In this document: one piece after another, positions 35,332 through 42,716 of the stretch
Position numbering within the stretch: position 1 is the first letter of the stretch
How the letters are laid out: each line of letters starts with the position of its first letter
Assembly (NCBI GenBank): GCA_938002655.1
Contig: CALLAC010000012.1
Coordinates: forward strand, 42,187-106,186
Direction: 5' to 3'
Source: an uncultured Cytophagales bacterium
Lineage (GTDB): Bacteria > Bacteroidota > Bacteroidia > Cytophagales > Thermonemataceae
DNA length: 64,000 nucleotides
Position numbers and translations under genes: made by a program
The notes under the pieces: generated by a model
Told to the model about the DNA's origin: nothing
Database searches by the model: none
What the model saw: the letters and a program-made list of their open reading frames with translations, nothing else

Positions 35332-35369
35332 AAAAAGGCTTGAATATTGGGAGAATATTCAAAGCCTTT
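35332..35369 (-). terminator. Terminator of the tRNA-like RNA
   Basis: On the minus strand AAAGGCTTTGAATATT pairs with AATATTCAAGCCTTT (one bulged base, 5-nt loop) and is followed by a T-rich stretch. It begins about 10 nt after the 3' end of the tRNA-like RNA. Confidence 0.8.
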
Positions 35370-35379
35370 GATTTTGAGC

Positions 35380-35526
35380 TGTAGGGGAAGGATTCGAACC
35401 TTCACAGGGAGATTAGGCAAAGGGCTTCGTAGCCGTAACATCTACAACTACCGAGCCATAGCTTTTTTTCTGTATCCCTGCCCCCGAGAATGGAGGGTGT
35501 GGCTGCCAGAATTTCACCACCCTACA
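35380..35526 (-). ncRNA. tRNA-like RNA with a 77-nt variable region
   Basis: Reading the minus strand: acceptor TGTAGGG pairs fully with CCCTACA; TG at positions 8-9; a 3-bp D stem (GTG/CAC) around a Leu-like D loop containing GG; an anticodon stem CCCTC/GGGGG around loop CATTCTC; a variable region of 77 nt (35480-35404); and a perfect T arm (GAAGG, TTCGAAT, CCTTC). The variable region is closed by CAGGGA/TCCCTG and holds an inner stem GGCT..GTAG with CTAC..AGCC. The anticodon loop has A instead of U33, so decoding is doubtful. No CCA is encoded and the next base is G. It has its own promoter and terminator. A normal class II tRNA has a variable arm of about 10-20 nt. Confidence 0.6.
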
Positions 35527-35549
35527 AGGTAGTAACTGAATTTTTGCTA

Positions 35550-35581
35550 CAATATTAGAGGAAACCCGATATTATTGCAAA
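35550..35581 (-). promoter_or_regulatory. Promoter of the tRNA-like RNA
   Basis: On the minus strand TTTG (35581-35578) and TAATATTG (35557-35550, one mismatch to TAnnTTTG) are 20 nt apart. The start would be near 35543, about 17 nt before the mature 5' end. The remaining bases from 35582 to 35666 are AT-rich leader of the Lrp gene with no further feature seen. Confidence 0.55.
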
Positions 35582-42507: not shown

Positions 42508-42644
42508 TTTCAGTAAGTTTATGGTTGAAAAAAAATCTGCTGTGAAAATAATTAACTTAACCAATATTCCCAAAAGCTGAAGCTAACTTTTTAAGATAAA
42601 ACAGACAAAAGCATTTTGTACAGCAATGATGAGATAATCTTTCG

Positions 42645-42716
42645 TAGCCCCGGCGGGAATCGAACCCACATCAAAAGTTTAGGAAACTTCTATTCTATCC
42701 ATTGAACTACGGGGCC
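42645..42716 (-). tRNA. tRNA-Arg(CCT)
   Basis: A complete class I cloverleaf: acceptor GGCCCCG/CGGGGCT, D arm GTTC/GAAT, anticodon stem GAAGT/ACTTT with loop TTCCTAA (anticodon CCT), T stem GTGGG/CCCGC with loop TTCGATT, and discriminator A. CCA is not encoded. It reads the AGG codon. Confidence 0.93.

Follow-up and report, generated by a model that had tools for sequence, protein, structure and literature searches.

The described RNAs closest to the RNA reported here are the class II tRNAs, tRNA-Leu especially, with which it shares the cloverleaf, a GGYAG-type D loop, an A15-U48 pair, a TTCGANY T loop, and an additional stem in the variable region. It differs from these tRNAs in presenting G73 instead of A73, a U1-A72 pair, an Asp-type anticodon loop, a length of 107–203 nt (median 144 nt in the cellular set), and a structured variable-arm domain, and it is recognized neither by ARAGORN nor by the Rfam tRNA model (RF00005). 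With tRNA-Asp and tRNA-Asn, the substrates of AspRS and GatCAB, it has G73, U35, C36, C38, and G2-C71 as well as U1-A72 in common; however, it presents a pyrimidine at position 37 (G in 4/139 RNAs), bases other than U33 and G34 in part of the RNAs, a giant variable arm, and no sign of decoding. tmRNA (RF00023) likewise places a tRNA-like end on a longer RNA and occurs in some phages beside tRNA genes, but the RNA studied here gives no Rfam tmRNA match and has full D and anticodon arms. In the non-canonical tRNA-Sec and allo-tRNAs an altered cloverleaf may exclude the molecule from the normal decoding cycle, as may be the case here, although acceptor length and anticodons differ; we know of no non-canonical tRNA that combines the loop, the arm, and the regulator of this RNA. 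Y RNAs (YrlA) are bacterial RNAs with a tRNA-like module; in the present RNA, by contrast, the acceptor stem encloses the whole molecule, and no Ro60 domain was found among the commonest neighboring families shown.

The locus lies in a 64,000-nt stretch of DNA from an uncultured Cytophagales bacterium (the window), in which an earlier note, made from the sequence alone, had described a free-standing 147-nt tRNA-like RNA. This RNA is present on the minus strand (Table 1), with each of the parts described for it, i.e., the 7-bp acceptor, the Leu-type D arm, the anticodon arm with its CATTCTC loop and A33, the T arm, and, within the 77 nt that separate the anticodon stem from the T stem, a CAGGGA/TCCCTG stem and a distal hairpin. 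The consensus promoter and strong terminator also described were borne out in part: a σ70 scan found no site directly upstream of the RNA on the minus strand and a terminator pattern scan of the locus found none, but the RNA is preceded by a Bacteroidetes-type promoter-like element and followed by a terminator-like inverted repeat (MFE of −14.4 kcal/mol; 0/200 shuffles as good). Among 160 distinct upstream regions of relatives, 124 presented TAnnTTTG, the Bacteroidetes −7 promoter element, at ≤130 nt from the RNA, as compared to ~16 in mononucleotide shuffles.

Table 1. Positions in the window of the tRNA-like RNA, its parts, and its flanking features.
Feature	Position	Strand	Remarks
tRNA-like RNA	35379..35526	-	148 nt with discriminator G73, 147 nt without; 5′ end 35526, 3′ end 35379; from sequence, parse, and covariance-model relatives
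Acceptor 5′ strand TGTAGGG (1–7)	35520..35526	-	7 bp with CCCTACA at 35380–35386
Leu-type D arm GTGAAATTCTGGCAGCCAC	35499..35517	-	A14, A15, G18G19 (our own numbering)
Anticodon arm CCCTC-CATTCTC-GGGGG	35481..35497	-	5-bp stem; loop 35486–35492 with A33 U34 U35 C36 U37 C38
Giant variable-arm domain	35406..35479	-	Closed by an AGGG/CCCT stem; CUAA in the internal loop; distal hairpin hypervariable
T arm GAAGG-TTCGAAT-CCTTC	35387..35403	-	5-bp stem
Acceptor 3′ strand CCCTACA	35380..35386	-	G73 at 35379, encoded C74 at 35378
Bacteroidetes-type promoter-like element TTTGCAA-N17-TAATATTG	35550..35581	-	One mismatch to TAnnTTTG
Intrinsic-terminator-like inverted repeat, then T run	35333..35369	-	From sequence; fold z −4.9
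AsnC/Lrp-family regulator gene, 154 aa	35667..36131	+	Divergent from the tRNA-like RNA; NCBIfam AsnC 158 bits

The only tRNA called in the window by ARAGORN, and by Rfam at gathering score, was a tRNA-Arg (42644–42716). In 10 loci with the tRNA-like RNA, cmscan at E ≤ 1 placed no Rfam family on the RNA itself and gave no tRNA (RF00005) match; weak matches to other families, far below their cut-offs, fell on a neighboring hairpin or overlapped parts of the RNA (L008, L070, L068). Identity with tmRNA was rejected, since in a search of the RNA's own genome the tmRNA model gave it no score and scored a separate tmRNA gene. A search for named or annotated copies with three phage copies of the RNA found no match in 50,697 phage records, a search with one copy found none in a plasmid collection, and no publication describing the RNA was found by title or abstract in a literature coverage that leaves out most subscription journals. 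As far as Rfam and these database and literature searches reach, the family is new.

Folded as a single sequence, the window RNA presented an MFE of −53.9 kcal/mol (shuffles, −45.4 ± 3.8; z = −2.2; 4/200 shuffles as good). Covariation in relatives, which is the decisive evidence over a single-sequence fold, argues that the molecule is selected as a folded RNA. In a MAFFT alignment of 19 RNAs, 99.4% of the cells in 25 pairs were paired and 16 pairs showed changes on both sides, with 47 double-change cells as compared to 11.4 in shuffles (0/500 as high); slid controls of the same alignment were 49–64% paired. A further 60 matches (56 distinct rows; alignment A4, which was fitted to the model) were 98.6% paired, again with 16 doubly changed pairs and with 117 double-change cells vs. 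27.6. The closing stem of the variable-arm domain covaries as well, and among phage RNAs (n = 44) double changes were found in 23/34 pairs, RNAalifold adding two covarying helices inside the domain. The tertiary core is that of a tRNA: besides the four covarying arms, 139 distinct cellular RNAs presented U8 (138), A14 (139), A15 (139), and U at the place of 48 (133), together with a GGYAR D loop that includes G18G19 (137) and, nearly always, a TTCGANY T loop. The abundance of compensatory changes in relatives, along with the promoter-like and terminator-like signals that flank a gene standing alone, agrees with the earlier view that this is not a dead tRNA. A recent insertion into an ordinary tRNA, which that note had also considered, is not supported, given the covarying closing stem of the insert, a CUAA string in the variable-arm domain of 128/139 RNAs, and the relatives read, which are not the 75- to 90-nt tRNAs expected in that case save for one arm-less form of 76 nt (see below). 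A fusion of two tRNA halves had been proposed from a D-arm-like string in the insert; this string (GCTCGGTAG) is indeed there, but it sits in the hypervariable region and was found in only four RNAs from three genomes of the window's genus (233, 18, and 61 RNAs checked), which speaks against the fusion. Pairing of the anticodon loop with an internal GGGAUAAA stretch was also considered and is not claimed, as loops were seen by eye to have changed at position 37 without a matching change.

A DNA search gave matches in 15/39 relatives, and at these loci complete tRNA-like RNAs were read, in many cases as tandem pairs or triplets; across all loci, arrays reached seven copies (L070), with spacers down to 12 nt (L003). 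The search of other Cytophagales genomes suggested in the earlier note was carried out with a covariance model (R1) built from 19 RNAs; because all 19 have TCTC, members with other loops may be under-sampled. R1 matched at E ≤ 1e-18 in 173/241 genomes of the order, three of these genomes lying at 7.7e-21 to 3.6e-20. One of the three (L231; G019:C23:55338-55413) was read and is a 76-nt form that lacks the variable arm and has a CTATCTC loop, G73, and a terminator-like hairpin behind it; it looks like a side branch. Genomes G220 and G230 presented E-values of similar size, and the AsnC ortholog of G019 is on a contig other than that of L231. The remaining 68 genomes gave nothing better than 2.4e-17, and their matches were regarded as ordinary tRNA genes, since in phage loci (e.g., L306 and L317) weak R1 matches fall on tRNA-Leu genes called by ARAGORN; among the 68, G021 nevertheless has a genuine copy (L010), truncated where its contig stops. 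Samples that overlap the order sample and one another gave matches at 1e-17 in 69/395 genomes class-wide and 42/395 phylum-wide, a threshold that admits an ordinary tRNA-Leu, as the match in one of the 42 (L247 in G929) proved to be on reading; three phylum-wide matches (G844, G852, and G909) belong to another class. A TCTC-selected pattern scan of named genome contigs gave at least 119 stretches, and the RNA was found in 74 of the 80 examined; carriers include Hymenobacter, Spirosoma, Dyadobacter, Cyclobacterium, Algoriphagus, Fulvivirga, Emticicia, Flammeovirga, Saprospiraceae, and others, as well as one MAG labelled Ignavibacteriales. The other six stretches, which we take to belong to other phyla, look like chance matches. 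The original observation is therefore confirmed and concerns much more than one gene; that the RNA represents a wide, conserved family of folded RNAs is nearly certain.

The family also has members outside cellular genomes. In IMG/VR, 105 stretches matched the TCTC-type pattern, and 79 of the 80 examined contained the RNA, which in three of the 79 is truncated at the edge of the contig. Eight of ten proteins scanned from eight viral loci matched phage families, including terminase (L289), DNA polymerase (L297 and L274), and RNA ligase (L317); the carriers are likely phages of Bacteroidota. Within the fetched stretches, tRNA genes were found in 41/79 loci and none in 38/79, and tmRNA in 14; four phage contigs (L277, L297, L328, and L345) carried 12 to 25 tRNA genes plus tmRNA, with up to 24 tRNA genes in L277 and 25 in L297. 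The phage RNAs are much diverged in sequence, but in alignment A10 (n = 44) they kept U1-A72 (43/44), G2-C71 (43/44), and G73 (44/44); A1-U72 was seen in two phage RNAs (L325 and L329) and A2-U71 in one. Hairpin-like insertions in the D loop were observed in L338:7143-7311, L277:7909-8079, and L319:1468-1626. Some phage RNAs, e.g., L276:4452-4598, have palindromic distal-hairpin tips of changing sequence. Palindromes of ≥8 nt were found in 43/61 phage RNAs (12.0 in mononucleotide shuffles) and in 16/122 cellular RNAs (20.6 in shuffles); homodimerization via a palindromic tip would thus be at most a phage feature, the cellular palindromes being below shuffle level.

Base counts by position were taken from the 139 distinct cellular RNAs, obtained from 155 model-found rows by removing four exclusions (L010, truncated at the contig edge; L052:1154-1226, incomplete; L231, 76 nt; and L247, a tRNA-Leu) and then identical rows. 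TCTC-selected sets (A2 and viral) were kept out of the loop counts, which were made from alignment columns; a parser favoring UC at 35–36 gave an equal result. U1-A72, G2-C71, G73, U35, and C36 were invariant (139/139) and C38 nearly so (137/139), with the acceptor pairs from about 3 to 7 covarying. Position 33, by contrast, was U in 106 RNAs and another base in 33, position 34 was G in 115 and another base in 24, and position 37 was U in 125, C in 10, G in 4, and never A; the window RNA itself, with A33 and U37, has neither the U33 nor the purine 37 of a decoding loop. Most of the positions expected to be read by a synthetase or an amidotransferase are fixed, and those required by the ribosome alone are loose.

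The ends of the RNA also resemble those of tRNA genes. An encoded C74 follows all 232 model matches that have a next base, a few of these matches being partial, and CCA follows 15; 30 of the 31 tRNA genes that ARAGORN read in the window's own genome also encode C74. Before U1, A was found at −4 in 146/160 and at −2 in 141/160 RNAs, and G never at −1 to −4. Tandem arrays with spacers as short as 12 nt would need tRNA-type processing, presumably by RNase P and with CCA addition. The sole tRNA-Asp found in the window's own genome (G000:C29:3256-3329; L040 and L257) has two mismatches in the acceptor stem and no encoded C74, which represents either a sequencing error or decay; the tRNA-Asp genes read in congeners are normal.

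Asp identity is given as G73, G34, U35, C36, and C38, with G2-C71 as a minor element (PMC9976931, PMC6523644). In E. coli, G1-C72 assists AspRS in positioning the 3′ end (PMC9976931). G34 is a strong determinant of Asp identity. For GatCAB, U1-A72 allows amidation, which G1-C72 and U20a prevent (PMC9976931, PMC4206432), and a non-discriminating AspRS is offered as another reason to keep this enzyme (PMC4206432). The window RNA has all five of G73, U35, C36, C38, and G2-C71, but U34 and U1-A72 in place of G34 and G1-C72; the family therefore presents the larger part of the Asp determinants, and U1-A72, the pair that allows amidation, replaces G1-C72. It also lacks U20a, position 20a being A in our numbering because G18G19 is followed by C-A in 138/139 RNAs and by T-A in one. 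With U34, the window RNA has a Glu-type triplet, and charging there could be with Glu. A tRNA-Leu would have A73 and a Leu anticodon; here, G73 is found in 139/139 RNAs and the anticodon is NUC. Binding by LeuRS or SerRS is conceivable, as the D arm and the A15-U48 core are Leu-like, yet all four Leu tRNAs of the own genome have A73.

The distribution of GatB is compatible with such an amidation. Across 39 genomes, GatB was found in all 28 RNA-positive and in 7/11 RNA-negative genomes (28/0/7/4, p = 0.004), an association that is not significant without four small genomes (28/0/6/1, p = 0.2) and that treats related genomes as independent. AsnRS was above its cut-off in 38/39 genomes and AsnB above its own in 34/39, so no Asn shortage explains the RNA, and tRNA-dependent asparagine supply as its purpose is weakened. 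The own genome gave no GlnRS match, and its GatCAB can therefore be explained otherwise. Among 11 GlnRS-positive genomes, however, nine have both GatB and the RNA and the other two have neither, which fits a role of GatCAB on the RNA because AsnRS and GlnRS together could make GatCAB dispensable for normal charging.

Upstream of the RNA, and divergent from it, lies an AsnC-type gene. The window regulator scored 158.1 bits with NCBIfam AsnC (PRK11179), the best of eight families and below the 227-bit equivalog cut-off; it is AsnC-like, not an equivalog of E. coli AsnC. Such a gene (≥161 bits to the window protein) was the first upstream gene, and divergent, in 91/156 array loci, a set in which the fetched DNA of 12 loci contains no upstream gene and some loci occur twice, having been taken from one contig or from nearly identical ones; it was also adjacent and divergent in 8 of 12 further RNA loci, including three from another class. 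RNA and AsnC ortholog co-occur in the 39 genomes (27/1/3/8, Fisher p = 2e-5, kinship ignored; 27/1/2/5, p = 4e-4, once the four genomes no larger than 1.6 Mb are set aside). The RNA-positive genomes in these counts include G021, on account of its truncated copy, and G019, on account of the 76-nt form. The sole RNA-positive genome without the ortholog (G012) has an RNA (L007) without CUAA. In 11 to 16 of the 68 loci scanned, the gene directly behind the AsnC-type one has SufBD-type domains and is of the SufB type involved in Fe-S assembly (e.g., L124:2854-4299). Downstream genes differ by locus, with no family above 7/107. No AsnC homolog was found at 1e-8 in 80 viral loci; action of the RNA in trans is therefore most likely, with AsnC as its presumed regulator.

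We propose that the RNA is transcribed, cut out, and CCA-tailed as tRNAs are, is charged with Asp or Glu, is possibly amidated by GatCAB, does not decode in the normal way, and is controlled by AsnC; this is the best single reading, with a probability of roughly 0.3 to 0.4. The part of it that holds the RNA to be charged and not to decode normally is likely. An AsnC-type regulator (E. coli AsnC responds to asparagine) would sense the amino-acid state and set the level of the RNA from the divergent promoter. AspRS or GluRS would read U35, C36, C38, G2-C71, and G73, Asp being the likely amino acid and Glu that of some lineages, and U1-A72 would mark the charged RNA for amidation. The variable-arm domain may pass the aminoacyl-RNA to a dedicated partner and bar it from normal decoding, and the aminoacyl-RNA may have a use that is linked to translation but is distinct from the usual reading of codons. 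The regulatory tRNA mimic considered in the earlier note would survive here in spirit, as a mimic whose function differs from decoding.

A doubtful but serious alternative is that the RNA is a regulatory RNA of AsnC, with the tRNA fold providing stability and processing, the UCUC loop or variable-arm motifs binding mRNAs or a protein, and no charging. The divergent AsnC gene, the near-invariant UC-N-C at 35–38, and a GACCAC motif in 60/61 phage and 35/122 cellular RNAs are consistent with this, and E. coli has small RNAs under the control of Lrp; however, the invariant U1-A72, G2-C71, G73, and C74 are features of an aminoacyl end, superfluous for a base-pairing RNA, and the phage loci have no AsnC, 41/79 of them having tRNA genes.

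It is unlikely that the RNA is a working tRNA-Asp isoacceptor (GUC) that reads GAC and GAU, perhaps at special sites with a variable-arm factor as for tRNA-Sec. Non-U33, non-G34, and the absence of A37 argue against decoding, and a tRNA-Asp gene was matched in 11/11 genomes searched as well as in the RNA-carrying phage L277; the tRNA-Asp of the own genome is unusual, but the congeners read have normal ones. This is set against U33-G34-U35-C36 occurring together in 85/139 RNAs, a commonest loop (CTGTCTC) that differs from that of the own tRNA-Asp (CTGTCAC) only at 37 (the window loop differs at 33, 34, and 37), and the tRNA genes beside the RNA in the viral loci just mentioned. Less probable still is a decoy or replacement directed against host nucleases that target tRNAs, serving phages as counter-defense and hosts as a sensor of tRNA damage: the RNA was found in nearly all pattern-matched viral contigs, the fetched stretches of 38/79 being free of tRNA genes, and an RNA-ligase gene lies ~2.4 kb from it in L317, but it is also kept in most cellular genomes of the order, linked to AsnC, and the 25 Pfam families most frequent in 107 downstream and 68 second-upstream genes include no defense family. 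The readings of the RNA as a tRNA-Leu in decay that has taken up an insertion, or as a leader acting in cis on the MFS gene whose start codon lies 150 nt downstream, are refuted, despite the Leu-type D arm, by compensatory changes throughout, differing downstream genes, tandem arrays, and phage copies.

Under the proposed reading, i.e., a charged, non-decoding RNA, the family might constitute a class of housekeeping RNAs derived from tRNA, in addition to tRNA and tmRNA: a carrier whose Asp or Glu would be amidated on the RNA by GatCAB, handed over through the variable arm, and controlled by AsnC; we put this forward only tentatively. An RNA that 173/241 sampled genomes of the order carry, with as many as seven copies in tandem and often beside a conserved regulator, and that many phage contigs carry too, has been missed by ARAGORN and has no match in Rfam. 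It also gives reason to re-examine unexplained GatCAB genes where both AsnRS and GlnRS exist (9/39 genomes, all nine RNA-positive). If the RNA is charged and yet does not decode, it shows that the identity signals of tRNA can be maintained independently of codon reading, and it points to a new use of aminoacyl-RNA.
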